NCBI GenBank assembly: GCA_009782495.1
Contig: WRIX01000012.1
Span: 1-39,808, forward strand
DNA: 39,808 bases
Direction of reading: 5' to 3'
From: Treponema sp.
GTDB taxonomy: Bacteria; Spirochaetota; Spirochaetia; Treponematales; Breznakiellaceae
The translations under genes were made by a program, and so were the position numbers. A model generated the notes under the pieces. It did no database searches. It was not told the origin of the DNA and saw only the letters and a program-made list of their open reading frames with translations. Of the stretch, positions 6,687 to 31,537 are shown piece by piece; position 1 is the first letter of the stretch; each line of letters starts with the position of its first letter.

Positions 6687-6774
6687 TGCCGCCCACAGGC
6701 ATTGTGCCGCCCGCCACTTGACAAGAAAAAACTGTTTTTCCATGATTATAAAATCATGTGGGGCTTTGCCCCGC
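6685..6774. repeat. cluster of three stem-loops downstream of mutL
   Basis: The mutL stop lies in AATGCC (6685-6690), which pairs with GGCATT (6698-6703). CATGAT (6741-6746) pairs with ATCATG (6753-6758). GTGGGGC (6758-6764) pairs with GCCCCGC (6768-6774) around TTT, counting one G-T wobble. None is followed by a run of T, so they are not obvious intrinsic terminators. They may protect or process the mRNA between mutL and the DUF4912 gene. Confidence 0.45.
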
Positions 6775-6798
6775 GATCGCAAGGAAATTATTATAGTT

Positions 6799-6816
6799 TA
6801 CCGCCAGGAGGCGGTA
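6799..6816 (+). promoter_or_regulatory. hairpin enclosing the Shine-Dalgarno of the DUF4912 gene (shared motif, copy 1)
   Basis: TACCGCC-AGGA-GGCGGTA forms a 7-bp stem with an AGGA loop, so the AGGAGG ribosome site (6806-6811) is half in the loop and half in the 3' arm. The same element with different outer base pairs precedes the chromate transporter gene at 25987-26004. Both are followed by TGTGCATGA. Likely roles are RNA-level control of translation or a dispersed translation-initiation cassette. Confidence 0.65.
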
Positions 6817-6821
6817 TGTGC

Positions 6822-7598
6822 ATGATAGACAGTGAAACAGTAAAATATAAAATGTTTTTGGAAAGTTCAACAACAAAAGAATTGATAAAATTGGCAGATC
6901 AGGCGGGGATCAGTATTCCTCCCGATCTGGACAGGATCTTTATAATCAGGGAATTACTGGATAATGTACTTGATGAAGAAGCAAATTCAAAACCATTATT
7001 CGACAAATATTATTTGCATGAGAAAAAGAACATTGAAACATCAGCAATGTTCAGTTCATCTTTAAATACAGCTTCCGGGCCGAAAGGCGCAGTGAATGAA
7101 AGCCATCGCAATTCTTCTTTGAATTCAAAAACAGCATCTTTGCCGCAACAGTATCACATTACCTATCTGGAAGTACTGTCCAGGGACCCTCAGTGGGTTT
7201 ATGTTTTTTGGGAGATTAAAGCCCAGGACAGAGAACGCTACGAAGCGGCTCCCGGTTTTGAAGGGTATGCCCTTAAAGCACTGGAAAACAAAAAAACCAA
7301 TGAAAGCAGTCCGGAAAACTGCAGAGACGGCGATTTTACAGAGTCATTTACCGTACCTGTCGGAAACGATGATAATTCCTGGTATCTTGGTTTTCCTGCT
7401 TTCGGAATTTACCGCATCGCTCTTTGGGTTCGGGGACTGAATACTACGGTTATTATGTCCCGTCCATTTATAATTCCGAAATTTTTAAATAACCCCGAAA
7501 ATACAAACTATTTATCCAGTCCGTTGATCCGGCTTTCCGGCGTATCGGAATTTTCGATACTTCGATCTGCAGACAGGGTTTCATACAATCGTTCATGA
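6822..7598 (+). CDS. DUF4912 domain protein, partner of the GH57 gene
   Basis: A cytoplasmic protein of about 258 aa. The DUF4912 signature is YHITYLEVLSRDPQWVYVFWEI in the middle, followed by beta-rich sequence ending FGIYRIALWVRGL, consistent with the small beta domain of this family. The N-terminal ~100 residues include a helical segment and a low-complexity Ser/Asn linker. DUF4912 genes often sit beside GH57 alpha-glucan branching enzymes, and here the stop overlaps the GH57 start by 4 nt, so a role in glucan metabolism or binding is likely (inference). The track start at 6702 lacks a ribosome site. ATGs at 6816 and 6822 lie 4 and 10 nt after AGGAGG; I chose 6822, and 6816 adds two residues. 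Confidence 0.85.
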   Translation: MIDSETVKYKMFLESSTTKELIKLADQAGISIPPDLDRIFIIRELLDNVLDEEANSKPLFDKYYLHEKKNIETSAMFSSSLNTASGPKGAVNESHRNSSLNSKTASLPQQYHITYLEVLSRDPQWVYVFWEIKAQDRERYEAAPGFEGYALKALENKKTNESSPENCRDGDFTESFTVPVGNDDNSWYLGFPAFGIYRIALWVRGLNTTVIMSRPFIIPKFLNNPENTNYLSSPLIRLSGVSEFSILRSADRVSYNRS

Positions 7599-18744: not shown

Positions 18745-19962
18745 TTAATTCAAAAAAGTACCGGCAACAGGATCATTCGGATCCATCTCAAGTACAGTGC
18801 GGAAAAAAGCTTCCGCTTCTTCTTTGTTTCCCTGTTTCATTGCAAGAATTCCCATATTGCTGATTATCTTTACATTGTCCGGATCAAGCTGCAGCGCTTT
18901 TTCCAGTTCTTTTTCCGCAACGTCAAGAGCGCCTGTTTCCAGGAGGCATATTGACATTTCATTATGCGTGTCAGCATTTTCACAGCCCAGTGTCAGTGCT
19001 TTTCTAAAACACTCCACAGCATTATCCCAGCGGGAAAGGCATCGAAGCCCCCAGCCAAGAACAAACCAGCCTTTTCCAGCTCCCGGATGACGCTCCAAAA
19101 AGTCTTTTGCTTTGTTGATTCCTTTTTCTGCATCACCCTTTCGTATTAAAGAAACCGCTTCGGTAAAATCATCATCATCCAAACCGTTATTTCTTATCTC
19201 GGCCAGTAATTCCCTTGCCTTAATTTGCTTGTTTTTCTCGGAATCAAATAATTCTTCTTCAAAAATAGCATCTAAATAAGCTTCCAGACAGGAAGCGGCT
19301 CTGGAATAATCCCCCTGCTTTTCATAAAATAAAGCCGCATAAAAAAGTGTATCGGGAACCGGATTTGCAAGGGCTTTTTCGTAAGCGGTTTCAACTTCAT
19401 CCGGCGCAAAGTCCGCTGCCAGGACAACAGAAGCCGCCGGAGAGGCAGCACGCTCTTCCAGAATCAGCGCCCGGTTAAGGAGTAAATAAGGATCCTGTCC
19501 CTTAAGCCCAAACAGCAGATCAAAAATCTCAAGAGCTGTTTTAAAATCTCCATTTCCGGCTTTTATAATTGCAGCTTCCTGTAATTCGGAAACAATTGCC
19601 GGTTTGGCGGCAAAAATCAAATTACGGTAATATGTGTTGTTATCACTGTCCGAATTTTGGGTTTTAAAATCTCCATTTCCGGCTTTTATAATTGCAGCTT
19701 CCTGTAATTCGGAAACAATTGCCGGTTTGGCGGCAAAAATCAAATTACGGTAATATGTGTTGTTATCACTGTCCGAATTTTGGGCCAAATGCTGAAGAAT
19801 TCCCGAAAAAATCATTTCCGGGGTAATTTGTTCTATTTTTGTATCAGGCGCCAATTCAACCGGCAGGGGAACGGCGGGGTTAAAAGCAAAAAATTCCTTT
19901 CCAATAACTTTCTTTTGCAGTTTTTCCGGAATTGCAATATAAACAAGCGGAAAGGTTTTCAT
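18745..19962 (-). CDS. TPR protein with a perfect 41-residue internal duplication (405 aa)
   Basis: A cytoplasmic protein made mainly of tetratricopeptide repeats: ALEIFDLLFGLKGQDPYLLLNRALILEE, then AVECFRKALTLGCENADTHNEMSICLLE, ALDVAEKELEKALQLDPDNVKIISNMGILAM and EEAEAFFRTVLEMDPNDP. Such repeats mediate protein contacts. Residues 61-101 and 102-142 (from QNSDSDNN to GDFKT) are identical copies arising from an exact 123-bp tandem duplication. This unit is not one TPR length (34). The reading frame is kept. The gene overlaps the upstream PilZ gene by 4 nt (19959-19962), implying a shared mRNA and possibly a c-di-GMP-responsive partnership. Confidence 0.9.
   Translation of the reverse strand: MKTFPLVYIAIPEKLQKKVIGKEFFAFNPAVPLPVELAPDTKIEQITPEMIFSGILQHLAQNSDSDNNTYYRNLIFAAKPAIVSELQEAAIIKAGNGDFKTQNSDSDNNTYYRNLIFAAKPAIVSELQEAAIIKAGNGDFKTALEIFDLLFGLKGQDPYLLLNRALILEERAASPAASVVLAADFAPDEVETAYEKALANPVPDTLFYAALFYEKQGDYSRAASCLEAYLDAIFEEELFDSEKNKQIKARELLAEIRNNGLDDDDFTEAVSLIRKGDAEKGINKAKDFLERHPGAGKGWFVLGWGLRCLSRWDNAVECFRKALTLGCENADTHNEMSICLLETGALDVAEKELEKALQLDPDNVKIISNMGILAMKQGNKEEAEAFFRTVLEMDPNDPVAGTFLN
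19538..19784. repeat. perfect 123-bp tandem duplication within the TPR gene
   Basis: Copy 1 is 19538-19660 and copy 2 is 19661-19783, identical base for base, with one further matching base at 19784. The period is 41 codons, so the frame survives. Zero divergence means a very recent event, an actively homogenised repeat, or an assembly or sequencing artefact. Confidence 0.92.
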
Positions 19963-24180: not shown

Positions 24181-25980
24181 ATGGAACAGTACAAACGGAC
24201 TGAAGACTGCGGTTCATTAAGAAAAACTGACGCCGGAAAAACCGTTATTCTGAACGGATGGGTTAATAGAAAACGGGATCACGGCGGCATAAGTTTTATT
24301 AACCTGCGCGATCGCTATGGAATAACCCAAACAGTAGTCGGGGAAGATGCATCTTCCGAACTTACTGCATTGGTTTCCGAACTTCATAACGAATACTGCA
24401 TTGCCGTAGAAGGCGTGGTCAGACAAAGACCTGATTCAATGATAAACCCGGAAATGGCAACCGGCGAAATTGAGGTTGTTATTAAAAATCTTGTAATACT
24501 GAATAAATGCGATGTACTCCCGTTCCAAATCGAAGATAAAACAAATGCAAGCGAAGAACTGCGTCTCAGTTACCGTTACCTTGACCTTCGCTCGGCAGGA
24601 ATGCAGAAACGAATCCGGCTGCGGCATGAAGTAGTTTTTGCCGTGCGTGAATGGATGAATGCCAACGGTTTTTACGAAATTGAAACTCCTGCTTTTATCC
24701 GTTCCACTCCGGAGGGCGCACGGGATTATTTGGTTCCTTCACGGTTATACCCCGGCAGGTTCTACGCTCTGCCCCAATCCCCACAATTGTACAAGCAGCT
24801 TCTTATGGTATCGGGCTTTGACAAATACTTTCAGATTGCACGATGTTACAGGGACGAAGATGCCCGGGGAGACAGGCAGCCGGAGTTTACCCAAATTGAC
24901 ATTGAAATGAGTTATGTAAGCCGGGACGATGTACTTGCCATGACCGAAGCATTTATAGGCCATGTATTCAAAAAAACCCTGAAGCTTGACCTTCCGCCCC
25001 GGTTTAAACGGCTTACATTTGAAGAAGCCATGGAAAAATACGGCACAGACAAGCCCGACCTTCGTTTTGATCTTCCGTTGCTCGACTTTAGCTCATATGC
25101 TTTAATGGGGGATTTTCAGGCATTCAAGGATGCTTTGGAATCCGGCGGAGCTGTAAAAGCTCTGGTCGTTCCTTCCGCGGCATTTGGAAGCAATTCTGCC
25201 TATTCACGCAAGCAAATTGAAGAACTTGAAGCCCATGCAAAAATCTACAAGGCTCAAGGGCTTGCCTGGATGAGAGTAACAGGAACCGGAACTGAACCGG
25301 TTCTGGAAGGCGGTGTTTCAAAATTCTTTACCGAAAATCACAAGGCAATAATTGCCGGTTTGAATGCAAAACCGGGTGATTTAATACTTATTACCGCAGA
25401 TATAAAAAAGAAGACGGCCAATGTTGCTCTGGGGGCAGTCCGTTCCAAACTTGGCAAAGACCTTGGCCTCTGCGGACAGGACGCTTTTGAATTTGTGTGG
25501 ATTATCGACTTCCCTCTCTTTGAATACAACGAAGAAGAACAGCGGTGGGAGGCCGCACACCATATGTTTTCCCGGCCTCAGGAACAATACCTGACAACCC
25601 TGGAATCCGATCCGGGCCCGGTTAAAGGGGACCTCTACGACCTTGTTCTTAACGGCTATGAATTGGCATCAGGCTCAATCAGGATTCACGAGCCGGAATT
25701 GCAAAAACGGATTTTCTCCATTGTTGGAATAAGCAGGGAAGAAGCGGAAACAAGATTTGGTTTTTTAACCAATGCATTTAAATACGGAGCGCCTCCGCAC
25801 GGCGGCATAGCTCCGGGGCTGGATCGTCTGGTAATGCTTATGGCAGGAGAAACATCAATAAAAGAAGTAATTGCGTTTCCAAAAAATTCTTTCGCCGTAA
25901 ATCCTATGGACAACTGTCCCGGCGAAGTAGAACAGAAACAACTGGACGAACTTCATCTTTCAGTTATCAAAAAAGAATAA
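24181..25980 (+). CDS. aspS: aspartyl-tRNA synthetase
   Basis: Class II aminoacyl-tRNA synthetase that charges tRNA-Asp. The N-terminal anticodon-binding OB domain (about 1-105) includes ILNGWVNRKRDHGGISFINLRDRYG. The catalytic core has motif 2 RCYRDEDARGDRQPEFTQIDIEMS (about 222-245) and motif 3 GGIAPGLDRLVML (about 541-553). Between them is the large bacterial-type GAD insertion (about 290-420), which places it in the bacterial AspRS group. The total of 599 aa is typical. Whether it also charges tRNA-Asn cannot be told from the sequence. The ATG has only a weak GGA upstream. The next gene, a chromate transporter, follows after a shared hairpin element. Confidence 0.97.
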   Translation: MEQYKRTEDCGSLRKTDAGKTVILNGWVNRKRDHGGISFINLRDRYGITQTVVGEDASSELTALVSELHNEYCIAVEGVVRQRPDSMINPEMATGEIEVVIKNLVILNKCDVLPFQIEDKTNASEELRLSYRYLDLRSAGMQKRIRLRHEVVFAVREWMNANGFYEIETPAFIRSTPEGARDYLVPSRLYPGRFYALPQSPQLYKQLLMVSGFDKYFQIARCYRDEDARGDRQPEFTQIDIEMSYVSRDDVLAMTEAFIGHVFKKTLKLDLPPRFKRLTFEEAMEKYGTDKPDLRFDLPLLDFSSYALMGDFQAFKDALESGGAVKALVVPSAAFGSNSAYSRKQIEELEAHAKIYKAQGLAWMRVTGTGTEPVLEGGVSKFFTENHKAIIAGLNAKPGDLILITADIKKKTANVALGAVRSKLGKDLGLCGQDAFEFVWIIDFPLFEYNEEEQRWEAAHHMFSRPQEQYLTTLESDPGPVKGDLYDLVLNGYELASGSIRIHEPELQKRIFSIVGISREEAETRFGFLTNAFKYGAPPHGGIAPGLDRLVMLMAGETSIKEVIAFPKNSFAVNPMDNCPGEVEQKQLDELHLSVIKKE

Positions 25981-25986
25981 ATAATT

Positions 25987-26004
25987 CGCCGCCAGGAGGC
26001 GGCG
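25987..26004 (+). promoter_or_regulatory. hairpin enclosing the Shine-Dalgarno of the chromate transporter gene (shared motif, copy 2)
   Basis: CGCCGCC-AGGA-GGCGGCG forms a 7-bp stem. Compared with copy 1 at 6799-6816, the inner five pairs and loop are identical, while the two outer pairs changed from T-A and A-T to C-G and G-C. Both members of each pair changed together. AGGAGG is at 25994-25999 and TGTGCATGA follows, as in copy 1. Confidence 0.65.
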
Positions 26005-26009
26005 TGTGC

Positions 26010-26570
26010 ATGAAAGAGTACCTCGATCTTTTTTGGACTTTTATCAGAATCGGAGCGGTGACCTTCGGCGGCGGATATGCAATGGTCCCTGTACTGGAAA
26101 GGGAATTAATCCGGGGCAAGGGCTGGATAACCATGGATGATGTGCTGGATTACTATACCATCGCCCAGGTAACTCCCGGGCTTATTGCAATTAATGTTTC
26201 TACTTTTGTCGGCTACAAGCGAAAAGGACTTCCCGGCGGTATTGCTGCCACAATTGGTTTTATTATACCCGGCGTAACCCTGATGACAATCATCTCTGTT
26301 TTTATCAGCCGCTTTGCTGAATTTGAAACTGTTCAGCACGTTTTTGCAGGCATCCGGGTTGCTGTCGGCGCCCTTATACTCAATACAATATTCCGTATGA
26401 TAAAAGGTTTCTTTAAGGATATAAAAAGCGTGGCCATTTTTGCTGTTGCCTTTGCCCTTTCCGCCCTTATGGGACAATCTCCTGTATATATAATACTTGG
26501 CGCAGGTTTTTTGGGATGGCTGCTGTATATGCCAAAAAACCATAAAGAACAAAGTAACGGCAACACATGA
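26010..26570 (+). CDS. chromate transporter (CHR family), first half of a split pair
   Basis: A 187-aa short-chain CHR-family membrane protein. The family signatures are present: FGGGYAMVPVLERELI with GKGW near the N-terminus, and AQVTPGLIAINVSTFVGYKRKGLPGG. Hydrophobic helices follow to the end. Short CHR proteins come in pairs that together equal one long ChrA, and the second half is encoded by the next gene, overlapping by 4 nt. They export chromate in some bacteria, but the natural substrate in anaerobic spirochetes is unknown. Start options are the GTG at 26004 and the ATG at 26010, which lie 4 and 10 nt after AGGAGG in a hairpin. I chose the ATG. Confidence 0.92.
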   Translation: MKEYLDLFWTFIRIGAVTFGGGYAMVPVLERELIRGKGWITMDDVLDYYTIAQVTPGLIAINVSTFVGYKRKGLPGGIAATIGFIIPGVTLMTIISVFISRFAEFETVQHVFAGIRVAVGALILNTIFRMIKGFFKDIKSVAIFAVAFALSALMGQSPVYIILGAGFLGWLLYMPKNHKEQSNGNT

Positions 26571-27130: not shown

Positions 27131-28307
27131 TTGTTTTTAACGCATCCTCCAATTCCGGTTTTGGTATACCCCAATTCCTTCCAAACCTGTCCAGCAATTT
27201 TTGCGATACATCCATAAAACGGGCAAACACAGCTTCTCCGGGTATTGTTAACCGGGAAAGCAGGTCAGGAAAAGAACGGCGGTTTACAATTTGTTCCCAA
27301 AAACGGGCAAAGTTCTTTATTTTTTCCATATCAGATGCCGGGAGGCAATCTGTTTCTGTCACTTCGTATGGTGCAACCGTATTATGCACTATGGAAAAAT
27401 GATCTTTTATAGCTTTGTCATAAATTGGTGTTCCCGGCAGACACTTGAGTATACCCAACTGTATTTCAAACGGCGCGGAACTGCCTGCTCCGCTAAGAGT
27501 TATCCATAAACGATCAAATCCATTTCCGAATGATCCAATGTCTTCGCCGGGAAGACCGGCGATAAGATCGACATGAAGTATTGCATTGGTTTTTTCCCTT
27601 AAAAAACGCAGAACTTCCAGTTCTTTTTCGGGGTTGCTGATCCTGTGAATCAAAGCGTTGGTTTTAGCGTTAAAACTTTGTATACCTATCTCCAGCCTGA
27701 TTGTTTCCGGCGGAAATAATGCCAGAATATTACACAATTCTTCCGGAAAAACAGCGGGGATCATCTCAAAATGAAATTGAACGCTGTAATGTTCTGTCTT
27801 TAAAAGACAGAATTCCAGAATTTTTACGGCTCTTGTCAGCTTAATATTAAAACTGCGATCAAGAAATTTAATGGTCTTTATTTTACCCCGGCACCGTTGC
27901 AACAGCCTGTCAAAATCGTTAAAAAACGACTCAAGAGGGAATTCCCTGAGCGAAACATTAGCAGCACTTTGGCAGAACGCACAACTGTAAGGACAACCTC
28001 TGGATGATTCTGCATAGATTAGCTTATGCTCGAGATCTTCTTCGGTATATAAATTATAGGCATTTTTAACAATATTTAGATCGGCTTCCCCTCCCTCAAT
28101 GAATTTACCGTAAGTTTTTTTTGCCGTAATCAAATCTTCCGACACAGCCCGGCATAGTTGTGCAAAAATCAACTCTCCTTCACCGCGTATCACAAAATCC
28201 GCATAATTAAAAATTTCGGTCTCTGGCGGCAAAGGCGTAAGCTCAGGACCGCCAAGAACAATCACAGGTTTTTTTTCCGGCCATTCATTTTCCAGGTCAC
28301 GAAGCAT
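27114..28307 (-). CDS. radical SAM protein of the B12-binding type, lacking the N-terminal half of the B12 domain
   Basis: The [4Fe-4S] motif is intact: C105, C109 and C112 in SSRGCPYSCAFC. The barrel that follows has EIGIQSFN and HVDLIAGLPGED, typical of radical SAM enzymes with an upstream cobalamin-binding domain. Only the end of that domain is encoded (VIVLGGPELTPLPPETE...DFVIRGEGE). Roughly 70-80 residues, including the usual DxHxxG cobalamin loop, are missing. An in-frame TAA stands immediately before the ATG, so no simple upstream start restores it. The start codon lies inside the last codons of the sensor gene (28297-28307), so the two are translationally coupled. The substrate is unknown. 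Confidence 0.88.
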   Translation of the reverse strand: MLRDLENEWPEKKPVIVLGGPELTPLPPETEIFNYADFVIRGEGELIFAQLCRAVSEDLITAKKTYGKFIEGGEADLNIVKNAYNLYTEEDLEHKLIYAESSRGCPYSCAFCQSAANVSLREFPLESFFNDFDRLLQRCRGKIKTIKFLDRSFNIKLTRAVKILEFCLLKTEHYSVQFHFEMIPAVFPEELCNILALFPPETIRLEIGIQSFNAKTNALIHRISNPEKELEVLRFLREKTNAILHVDLIAGLPGEDIGSFGNGFDRLWITLSGAGSSAPFEIQLGILKCLPGTPIYDKAIKDHFSIVHNTVAPYEVTETDCLPASDMEKIKNFARFWEQIVNRRSFPDLLSRLTIPGEAVFARFMDVSQKLLDRFGRNWGIPKPELEDALKTIINQI

Positions 28308-30294
28308 TTAACTCTTCCAGGCGGCCCGAAGTTTTTACTTTCTTGTTCTCATCATCATCAGCGCTAAAACTGCCCTGATCATCAAACTCGGAACGCATAC
28401 TGGCAAAAGGAGAAACGATTTCAAAATCACTTTCTGCGGCCGGCTCTGCAGGATCCTCTGATTTAGCCGAAACTTCAAATTCTATCTTGCTTGCAACATC
28501 CTTTTCAGAGTCAGAAAAAGAAAGAGGAACGGGACCGGTTGATTCCGGTTCATCCAATTCTTCCAGTTCTTCAAGCTCTTCCAGCTCTCCGTCATCGCCG
28601 GATATTCCGCCTTCATCCATTAAATTATCAACCAGTTCAAGATCGGAAGATTCAACAATAATTGGGATCGATGAAGATGTTACCGTTGTTGTACCGGGAG
28701 CTTCATCCAGCCCGGCAATTTCTTCCGGTTCCGAAAGTTCATCCACTTCCAGCGGTTCTTCGGAATCAGAGAGCTCTTCCAGTTCTTCCAATTCTTCCAG
28801 AGCGTCTTCTTCGGAAACTCCTTCATGTTCAACCAAATCTTCTTCAAATATTTCCGATTCACTGCCCAGCTCTTCAACTTCTTCTTCATCTCCCAGTTCT
28901 TCCAAAACCTCTTCTGCTTCGGAAGAAAGACCGGCGCCGGAAGAATCTGCCGGAGCGCCGGCATTGGCAAACGGCATTAATGCAGCCATTGTATCTGAAG
29001 CTGGCCCGCCGCCCGGAATTACCGGAGAGGTTCCGGCTGCCAGGAGCATACGGTTCAGAATATTCTGGAGTTTATCCTCGTCTATTGCCAAACGGGTTTC
29101 ACGCTTGCCGCCAATAGCAGTAAGTATTTCATCCCAGGATTTATCAATAAGATTATCTATATCTGTAACAAGTTCCTGCTTTCCCTTAACACCGCGCTTT
29201 AATTCGATCCTTACATCTTCCCTGCGCTGTTCCAGTTCCCTGTACCAATGGTTCCAGTCCATTTCACCTTTACGTTCGTAGTATTCCCGAATCAATGAAA
29301 GCTGGAGGTTTTTCAGCCGGTTCTGAACGATGGTCATGGTATCCGGCTGGAGGTTAAGTGCAAGAAAGATGGAAAGGAAAATGGTCAGAAAAATAGCAGT
29401 AAGCAGAATTACCTTCATGGACTGAGGGAAAGCGAAGAGGGATTCGTCCACTACCCGGCCGATAAAAAGACCTTGTTCGGTTTTTTCTGAAATCAGAGCC
29501 AAAGCGGAACCGGACATACTGGAATCCAGAGTGGTAAGGTTTAAAAGACCTTCATTCCATATTGAAGAAATAACCGGAATTAACACATCCGCTTCATCAA
29601 GAGCATGGGGAAGACCTGAAACCATTCCGGGGGGATCAGAAACAACCGAAAAATTTTCCCCTATTTTAACCCGGCCTTCAGCGATCAGCCGGTCAGCCAC
29701 TGCCCGGACAGAAACAGAATAAAACACCGTTCCCCGGTATACTTCCATGGAATCGTAAAAAGGAAATGAAAAAATAATTCTTTCATTCTGCTGATCCAGG
29801 GTGATTTTGGGATTCCCTCCGGAAGGAACCGCAATTTCCGGATAGGGAACATACGGAGAGGTCTCGTCATAATTTCTGTAAGAAATGGTTTCGGCGCTTC
29901 GGTTAAGAATGTCAGCAACGCTGGTAGAAAAGTGAATCCTTATACCCCCGGCGTCGACAAAGCGTACCGATTGGATCCCCTTTTGTGATTCCAAAAGCAA
30001 GCCATAAACACGGGTACGTTCAAAAATATCCTGGGCTGCCTGGTTGGGCAGAAAACTTCTCTTAACCGCATCGGTAGCAAGAGCAGCAGAAAACCGGTCA
30101 CTCAATTCATTAAAGAAGTTTTGAATCGTACCGGCATCCTGCTCAGTTTCCCTTTCCAGGGATCTGGTTATGGAAGGATTATAAAAACGGGTTTCTACAA
30201 GATTGAAGAAGCCGGTGAATGCCAGAACAGAAAAACCCGCTGCCAATACTACCGCTATTAGGAGTGAAAGAGCAGCTTTTTGAGAAACAGTCAC
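28297..30294 (-). CDS. membrane protein with extracytoplasmic sensor-like domain and long acidic cytoplasmic tail
   Basis: From the GTG at 30294 the protein has 665 residues. A helix at 7-30 and another at about 292-315 (VILLTAIFLTIFLSIFLAL) bracket a ~260-residue extracytoplasmic region resembling a Cache-type sensor. After the second helix comes a basic coiled coil (LIREYYERKGEMDWNHWYRELEQRRED). A ~230-residue acidic low-complexity tail follows, dominated by EELEELEEL blocks. There is no HAMP, kinase, chemotaxis or cyclase domain. The track start at 30483 would overlap hflX on the other strand. The GTG at 30294 has GGTGGGG just upstream; the ATG at 30402 is the alternative. It is coupled to the radical SAM gene. 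Confidence 0.83.
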   Translation of the reverse strand: MTVSQKAALSLLIAVVLAAGFSVLAFTGFFNLVETRFYNPSITRSLERETEQDAGTIQNFFNELSDRFSAALATDAVKRSFLPNQAAQDIFERTRVYGLLLESQKGIQSVRFVDAGGIRIHFSTSVADILNRSAETISYRNYDETSPYVPYPEIAVPSGGNPKITLDQQNERIIFSFPFYDSMEVYRGTVFYSVSVRAVADRLIAEGRVKIGENFSVVSDPPGMVSGLPHALDEADVLIPVISSIWNEGLLNLTTLDSSMSGSALALISEKTEQGLFIGRVVDESLFAFPQSMKVILLTAIFLTIFLSIFLALNLQPDTMTIVQNRLKNLQLSLIREYYERKGEMDWNHWYRELEQRREDVRIELKRGVKGKQELVTDIDNLIDKSWDEILTAIGGKRETRLAIDEDKLQNILNRMLLAAGTSPVIPGGGPASDTMAALMPFANAGAPADSSGAGLSSEAEEVLEELGDEEEVEELGSESEIFEEDLVEHEGVSEEDALEELEELEELSDSEEPLEVDELSEPEEIAGLDEAPGTTTVTSSSIPIIVESSDLELVDNLMDEGGISGDDGELEELEELEELDEPESTGPVPLSFSDSEKDVASKIEFEVSAKSEDPAEPAAESDFEIVSPFASMRSEFDDQGSFSADDDENKKVKTSGRLEELNAS
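28554..28800. repeat. period-9 nucleotide repeats encoding E-E-L runs
   Basis: Two blocks (28554-28588 and 28771-28800) repeat TTCTTCCAG-like 9-mers, reading E-E-L on the minus strand. Such short-period repeats can expand or contract without losing frame. They also create a spurious serine-rich ORF on the plus strand. Confidence 0.7.
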
Positions 30295-30409
30295 CGAACC
30301 CCACCTGAGAAAAAGATTATTCCTTACAATTATCGGAATAAAAGCAGGCTTTATAATAGTATACAAAGATAGTATATCTAAAAGATGATATTTATGCCAC
30401 ATTAATCCA

Positions 30410-31537
30410 GTGAAACCTTTGCATACAGTCGAAACCGAACCAATCAGGGTCTTTTTGGCGGAAATAAGGTCCGGCGCCGACACAGAACCACTGACTGCGG
30501 AACTGAGAGGGCTGACAAATACCCTGGGACTGAATATTGTCGGGTCAGAAACCGTTGTTATCAGGGATCGTAAAGGCTTTTTTCCGGGCAGCGGAAAACT
30601 AAAGGAATTATCGGAAAAAGCGCTCTCGGCCGGGGCTCAGTGTATTATTTTTGACAGTGAATTAAGCCCATCCCAACAGCGGAAATGGGAAGCATTGTGC
30701 GGCCTGTCCGTTTTGGACCGGCAGGAGCTGATTATAAGGATTTTTGCAAGCCGGGCAAAAACCAGAGAAGCCGGACTCCAGGCGGAGCTGGCAGAACTTC
30801 TCTATGCCCTGCCCCGGCTTTCTCACAAATACATAGATTTATCCCGGCAACGGGGCGGCCGTTACGGTACCCGCGGCTCCGGCGAAACCCAGTTGGAAAC
30901 CGACAGACGGCAAATACGCGAACGAATCGGTTCTTTGCGAAAAGAAATTGAGGATGTACGAACCAACCGGATGCTTCAGCGTAAACAGCGAAAAAAACAG
31001 GGAATTGCAGTTTGCGCCCTGGTTGGTTATACCAATGCAGGGAAATCTTCCCTTCACCGGGCATTAACCGGCTCGGAAGCATTGGTAGAAAACAAACTTT
31101 TCGCCACTTTGGACCCCACAGCCCGCAGGGTATACCGGCAGAGTCCTTCCGGAAAAGGAAAAACCATCATTTTTGTCGATACCGTTGGTTTTATCCGCCG
31201 GCTTCCTCATAATCTGGTTGACGCCTTTAAATCGACACTGGAAGAGGTCTGCCAGGCGGATATTTTAATTCATGTGCTGGATGCCTCCGATCCTTCATGG
31301 AAAGAACATTCCGGGACGGTTCAGGGACAGCTTAAAGAGCTGGGAGCGGAAAACATTCCCCTTATCACAGTTTTGAACAAAGCGGATCTTCTGACAACTG
31401 AGGAACTTATTGCGTTAGAAACAGCTGTCAGCAGGGAAATCCCGGCCTTTTCGTCCGCCATTACAGCTGTTTCCGCCAAAAACAAAGAAGGCCTGGAGCC
31501 GCTATGGAAATTAATTGAAAAAAGACTTAAGTTTTAA
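30410..31537 (+). CDS. hflX: GTPase HflX (ribosome rescue/splitting)
   Basis: HflX is a translational GTPase that splits stalled ribosomes. The N-terminal domain (about 1-170) has GSGKLKELSEKA and the family marker GERGPGETQLE in the variant form RYGTRGSGETQLETDRR. The coiled region (ERIGSLRKEIEDVR) leads to the G domain: G1 GYTNAGKSS (206-214), G3 DTVGFIRRLPH, G4 NKAD (about 323) and G5 SAKNKEG. At 375 aa it is slightly short but complete. The start is a GTG at 30410 with no evident ribosome site. The gene diverges from the sensor gene, and its 3' end carries the sigma-28 promoter of fliS. Confidence 0.95.
   Translation: MKPLHTVETEPIRVFLAEIRSGADTEPLTAELRGLTNTLGLNIVGSETVVIRDRKGFFPGSGKLKELSEKALSAGAQCIIFDSELSPSQQRKWEALCGLSVLDRQELIIRIFASRAKTREAGLQAELAELLYALPRLSHKYIDLSRQRGGRYGTRGSGETQLETDRRQIRERIGSLRKEIEDVRTNRMLQRKQRKKQGIAVCALVGYTNAGKSSLHRALTGSEALVENKLFATLDPTARRVYRQSPSGKGKTIIFVDTVGFIRRLPHNLVDAFKSTLEEVCQADILIHVLDASDPSWKEHSGTVQGQLKELGAENIPLITVLNKADLLTTEELIALETAVSREIPAFSSAITAVSAKNKEGLEPLWKLIEKRLKF

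Follow-up and report, generated by a model that had tools for sequence, protein, structure and literature searches.

The stretch of DNA analysed here (hereafter the window) comprises 39,808 nt of contig WRIX01000012.1 (assembly GCA_009782495.1) from Treponema sp. and carries two genes, one for a DUF4912-domain protein and one for a chromate transporter, which are preceded by the same hairpin (Table 1). The core of this hairpin, the 14-mer CCGCCAGGAGGCGG, occurs exactly at positions 6801-6814 and 25989-26002, and a search of the window allowing 2 mismatches returned 2 matches versus 0.16 expected. As originally predicted, the outer base pairs differ between the two copies while remaining paired (T-A/A-T versus C-G/G-C), as seen in the extended copies TTACCGCCAGGAGGCGGTATGTGCATGA and TCGCCGCCAGGAGGCGGCGTGTGCATGA. 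The original prediction placed the hairpin correctly but drew the element too short: a folded repeat of ~63 nt ends, on its 3' side, in the 26-base hairpin and further comprises a second hairpin and a long-range helix, with an ATG at both flanks. The 26-nt boundary was therefore dropped, and 69 nt including both ATG triplets were adopted instead. The consensus order is left ATG, hairpin 1 (hp1), CGA, GCGCA, AGGAAATTATTATAGTT, hairpin 2 (hp2) with AGGAGG, TGTGC and right ATG. The distance from the Shine-Dalgarno (SD) motif AGGAGG to the right ATG is 10 nt, a spacing that exceeds the usual optimum.

The copy at the chromate transporter gene directly follows the stop of the upstream gene at 25980 and is truncated, with hp2 at 25987-26004, AGGAGG at 25994-25999 and the right ATG at 26010-26012. 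Since it keeps only hp2, the 3' arm of the long-range helix P2 and the ATG, P2 is unable to form at 25987; that the SD hairpin is the sole survivor at this gene fits a role as a ribosome site. Longer variants of ~90-105 nt, carrying an extra inner hairpin (AAAGAAGCTGCTATCGCAGCAATTTTA) between the linker and hp2, were found at other loci (L046, L103, L104, L106, L139). The window also contains repeats of other kinds, namely a perfect 123-bp tandem duplication (19538-19783) inside the minus-strand ORF 18745-19962, and imprecise repeats with a 9-base period (28541-28909) inside the minus-strand ORF 28297-30483.

Table 1. Coordinates in the window of the two element copies, their parts and the genes that follow them.
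Feature	Position	Strand	Evidence
Complete element copy with both flanking ATG triplets	6756..6824	+	Covariance model match, 92.1 bits, E 9.7e-18; empty site in the relative G003
Left ATG, putative original start codon and target	6756..6758	+	Aligns to the start codon of the G003 DUF4912 gene; 5' flank homologous up to there
hp1, GTGGGGC TTT GCCCCGC	6758..6774	+	Covarying stem; two-sided changes in 5/7 pairs (alignment A3)
5' arm of P2, TCGCA here (consensus GCGCA)	6777..6781	+	Partner TGTGC
hp2 (hairpin of the original prediction), TACCGCC AGGA GGCGGTA	6799..6816	+	Two-sided changes in 4/7 pairs; 96.8% of cells paired
SD AGGAGG, within hp2 (loop plus 3' arm)	6806..6811	+	Counts of strong SD at start-codon copies
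3' arm of P2, TGTGC	6817..6821	+	Sequence and pair counts
DUF4912-domain gene, starting at the right ATG (6822-6824)	6822..7598	+	Pfam PF16258, E 1.5e-10
5'-truncated copy (part of linker, hp2, SD, TGTGC, right ATG)	25979..26012	+	Covariance model match, 34.2 bits
Chromate transporter gene, start supplied by the truncated copy	26010..26570	+	Pfam PF02417, E 6.8e-49, match from residue 5

The fold consists of three helices: hp1, hp2 and P2, in which GCGCA pairs with TGTGC. When 27 copies are aligned without gaps, 93.8% of the cells are paired, as opposed to only 25-55% when the partners are slid by 1-3 columns, and two-sided changes occur in 11 of the 19 pairs (54 cells; 14 +/- 3 in shuffles, of which 0/500 reach 54). 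Among 34 more diverse copies, including ones without an SD, such changes affect 14/19 pairs. The proposal that an RNA structure is under selection, first made from the two copies in the window, is thus upheld by compensatory changes in all three helices. Within P2, a G.U pair is kept in 31/34 copies and the neighbouring pair switches from C-G to U-A in 11/34, a pattern in keeping with a structure that functions in the sense-strand RNA. Folds of individual copies agree in most cases. Away from genes, the hairpin persists with other loops (AAAG, TTCG, TAAC, CATACG), and since hp2 is retained where both the SD and a downstream gene are missing, the hairpin belongs to the element and does not specifically serve as a trap for the ribosome site. 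A known RNA family was considered as well and rejected: the Rfam search gave 0 matches at the gathering threshold and elsewhere only chance-level scores.

The host genome assembly (2.41 Mb, 150 contigs, 86% complete) contains 7 copies of the exact 14-mer and 19 of a relaxed pattern, versus 0 for the reversed-pattern control in each case. A covariance model seeded with SD-bearing copies retrieved 28 matches in this genome, 26 of them with E<0.01, far more than the two copies that had been noticed initially; the same model gave 39, 21, 9 and 1 matches in other genomes of the genus. With a second model, matches were detected in 38 of 254 genomes of the order, most of the genomes being metagenome assemblies. 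High copy numbers are found in the genus of the window and in g58, a second genus whose genomes have 15-20 each, with 17 copies in genome G207 of g61, and three other families yielded weak matches. Copies also occur in tandem arrays whose units share the ATG. In G207, a subfamily (L316-L326) has a TTA end in place of the ATG and GATCG/CGATT as P2; its members lie off gene starts and never possess the SD. A close relative, Treponema sp. MAG Nt197P3bin20, carries the same element, and judging from this genome and PMC13067680 the environment of the group (family Breznakiellaceae) is probably the termite gut.

Gene starts were compared with ~1.2 Mb of the relative G003. Empty start-codon sites were recognised in G003 at the DUF4912 gene itself, at ppk, at lysS and at three further loci: the 5' flanks are homologous as far as a single G003 start codon, which is TTG at one locus and ATG at the others, and the genus of the window has ATG-element-ATG at the same place. 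Flank alignments score 15-26 at these sites versus a shuffled maximum of 10-13. At three other starts (L093, L098, L108) homology of the 5' flank to G003 was too indistinct for them to be counted as empty, and for L038 the orthologous start was not found among the relatives searched. The insertion measures 66 nt, i.e. 63 nt plus the duplicated ATG.

Two insertions were found inside conserved protein genes of the host genome. In ptsI (L035/L147) the sequence reads GCA-ATA-[63 nt]-ATA-AAC, in frame, where relatives have LAMNK or similar without an insert; in copA (L033) it reads GCT-ATG-[63 nt]-ATG-GTA-GGA, where a 95%-identical relative has GCT-ATG-GTA-GGA. Both inserts are in frame, free of stops and 22 residues long, and the one in copA lies immediately ahead of the invariant GDGIND motif. 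Identity between flank and element stops at the triplet, so that the repeated unit is 3 bp, ATG or ATA, a unit defined mainly by ATG/ATG pairs with few ATA/ATA cases. Together, the exact empty sites and the in-gene copies identify a small mobile element with a 3-bp target repeat. The copA insert falls in an expected core strand, yet the gene stays open. A relative-rate test on copA and ptsI detected no excess of amino-acid changes on the lineage of the window, a result that a recent insertion would also give. A further five copies (L124, L126, L297, L315, L327) contain stops that follow long open frames, and these resemble insertions at the ends of genes or unannotated frames. In several genomes the element is nested at the ATA of a second palindromic repeat (TTATTCGAAAGTCTGGTTTAATACCCCG...GGTATTAAACCAGACGG; L047, L059, L105, L134), and similar nesting is seen in another family (L071, L076).

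Matches of more than 40 bits with flanks were divided into start-codon copies, in which the right ATG opens a long ORF (judged by ORF length, not by full gene calling), and copies elsewhere. A strong SD is present in hp2 of 44/45 start-codon copies versus 6/30 elsewhere in the first sample (g1; p=5e-13), while in genus g58, fetched independently, the figures are 27/28 versus 2/15 (p=4e-8); the counts include some orthologous copies common to sister species, which means that independence is overstated by the Fisher p-values, and g58 is the better replication. Two of the six SD-bearing copies elsewhere are inner members of tandem arrays leading to a gene, and both in-gene copies have a mutated SD (AGGTGG, GGAAGG). 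The left start codon is blocked by a stop, a frame change or loss of the start in 30/45 (g1) and 27/27 (g58) start-codon copies, in which the right ATG must therefore start the protein. In keeping with this, Pfam domain matches begin at residue 4 (polyphosphate kinase) and residue 5 (chromate transporter). The genes downstream are unrelated: they encode a HAD hydrolase, a bactofilin, polyphosphate kinase, the DUF4912 protein, class I LysRS, a PfkB protein and the chromate transporter. These data are most economically explained by an element that provides a ribosome site and whose SD is kept by selection only where the gene needs it; judging from sequence, ribosomes probably use this SD and the right ATG.

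The original prediction had left a choice between a translation switch and a mobile initiation cassette, and the latter has gained strong support from what is directly observed: exact insertions at start codons with empty counterparts, the repeated triplet, in-gene insertions, tandem arrays, the conserved three-helix fold and the retention of the SD only at gene starts. We consider it likely (with a probability of roughly 0.8) that the repeat is a small non-autonomous mobile element that acts as a self-contained, mobile translation-initiation region. According to this model, the 63-nt element inserts at an ATG (sometimes ATA) and leaves a copy of the triplet on either side; where it sits at a gene start it has hit the gene's own start codon, resulting in ATG-element-ATG; the element would bring a strong SD (AGGAGG) in its last hairpin, 10 nt 5' of the right ATG, which would then become the working start codon. 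ATG and ATA triplets number ~68,000 per Mb on both strands, and assuming ~2,000 genes, start codons would make up of the order of 1% of the possible targets; the concentration of copies at starts must consequently stem from selection, targeting or both. Mobility that is itself aimed at initiation codons, for example by insertion at AUG on the RNA level or coupled to the initiation complex, would explain the location at starts by target choice beyond later selection, with in-gene copies perhaps skipped by ribosomes; relatives of the fold in the tRNA-Met(CAT) leader (see below) form part of this variant, which we regard as unlikely.

A cis-acting switch, in the manner of a riboswitch or thermometer-like leader, would hide the SD and answer a signal, its copies having spread because such regulation is useful. 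The position of the SD, which occupies the loop and 3' arm of a hairpin whose stem is stable and covaries, would suit it, as would the presence of the element at essential genes such as lysS. The target genes, however, are unrelated and no common regulon was found among them, the hairpin is equally conserved where both the SD and the gene are absent, and at the chromate transporter hp2 alone still stands at the start; as neither an alternative fold nor an Rfam match was found, we judge a switch to be very unlikely. The repeat could instead be a selfish one of the kind described in Rickettsia, inserted in frame in proteins, in which case the SD and the start position would be incidental and translation from the left ATG would yield N-terminally extended proteins. 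The stop-free 66-nt inserts of ptsI and copA do encode peptides of the type PFGPRAxGNYYxSPPxGGVC, a degenerate but open 75-nt insert is found in the gene for an FAD-binding subunit in G004, and 15/45 start-codon copies of g1 are continuous in frame from the left start codon. Against this stand the stops and frame changes that block most start-codon copies (30/45 in g1 and 27/27 in g58), and the confinement of the SD to gene starts, with mutated versions in both in-gene copies, which make this reading improbable.

Translational bypassing as in phage T4 gene 60, whereby ribosomes would leave the left AUG or AUA and land on the matching right codon so that in-gene copies are skipped, draws on several features of the element: the flanking codons match, including ATA/ATA in ptsI, the fold brings the two ends together, and the landing codon has an SD-like sequence in front of it, a trait known from gene 60 as well (PMC5009743). 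It would also account for copA, where 22 extra residues would interrupt the strand before GDGIND although the gene is open and amino-acid changes are not in excess. Yet both intact in-gene copies (only two such cases) are in frame and stop-free, which preserves the frame without bypassing, they are the very copies with mutated SDs, and the left codon is not followed by a stop codon. Bypassing of in-gene copies is very improbable, and a mobile initiation region remains our preferred reading.

Variants of the fold, single or in tandem (~5 units in G009), were also seen directly 5' of the tRNA-Met(CAT) gene; of 30 loci inspected, about one third have them (L178/L050 in G000, L062/L198 in G009, L177 in G016, and L186, L197, L200, L202, L204, L205). 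At the 3' end they run into the tRNA itself, sharing its nucleotides 1-9 (GGCGGCATA), and the 5' arm of P2 (TGCCGC or GAGCCG) can pair with the 5' acceptor strand of the tRNA.

Mobile elements are known to bring promoters; if our reading is correct, this one would be a portable signal for translation initiation, able to rewire protein synthesis one gene at a time, even that of the essential lysyl-tRNA synthetase. The empty and filled starts would offer many natural before/after pairs in which the effect of a single insertion on translation can be measured, and they make one ask by what means an element of 63 nt, for which no transposase is known, finds an ATG. In the open-access literature we found no description of any mobile element with insertion at start codons and a Shine-Dalgarno sequence of its own to supply. 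A phage origin was considered and set aside after an exact-pattern search of viral contigs with one pattern gave 0 matches.

Among known systems, miniature inverted-repeat transposable elements (MITEs; PMC10969869) are likewise small and non-autonomous, repeat their target triplet on both sides (here a 3-bp ATR repeat at the empty/filled pairs) and can alter the expression of neighbouring genes; unlike them, the element has no terminal inverted repeats in the alignment of its ends. The same review does not describe a start-codon position with a supplied ribosome site. GTAG- and CGTC-tagged REPs are short dispersed hairpin repeats of several phyla, sometimes located within or at the ends of ORFs as is the present element, and CGTC repeats are known from Spirochaetes without a dedicated transposase (PMC3733652). 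The element differs from REPs in its three helices with the long-range P2, and its CGTC letters are not an invariant unpaired tag at the end of a palindrome but lie in the hp1 stem, where they vary with compensation (CGTC, AGGG, TGGG). A RAYT/IS200 transposase, the partner of GTAG REPs, was rejected as the mobilising enzyme: Y1_Tnp (PF01797) is absent from G000-G003, among them the genome of the window, and one is present in G004, making four of five genus genomes (MAGs 64-86% complete) that lack it. Byp elements and the T4 gene 60 coding gap (PMC5009743) share the short structured insert, the matching codons and the SD-like sequence before the second codon, but the element resides mostly at start codons, and its copies inside genes keep an open reading frame. 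Rickettsia palindromic elements (RPE; Ogata 2000), coding inserts of ~150 bp (reviewed in PMC10969869), resemble it in being short, structured, many-copy repeats that sit in frame within conserved protein genes and encode a conserved peptide. The element is similarly dispersed with empty sites in relatives, and its in-frame insertions lie in unrelated protein genes, ptsI and copA, although these are a minority of its copies; by description, RPEs do not share its length of 63 nt, its location mostly exactly at start codons, the duplicated ATG or the SD kept only there, and the host phylum differs. In the defining features that were tested, the element departs from RAYT-REPs, CGTC-REPs and inverted-repeat MITEs, and it works partly like RPEs (PMC10969869) and partly like small REP-type repeats (PMC3733652).
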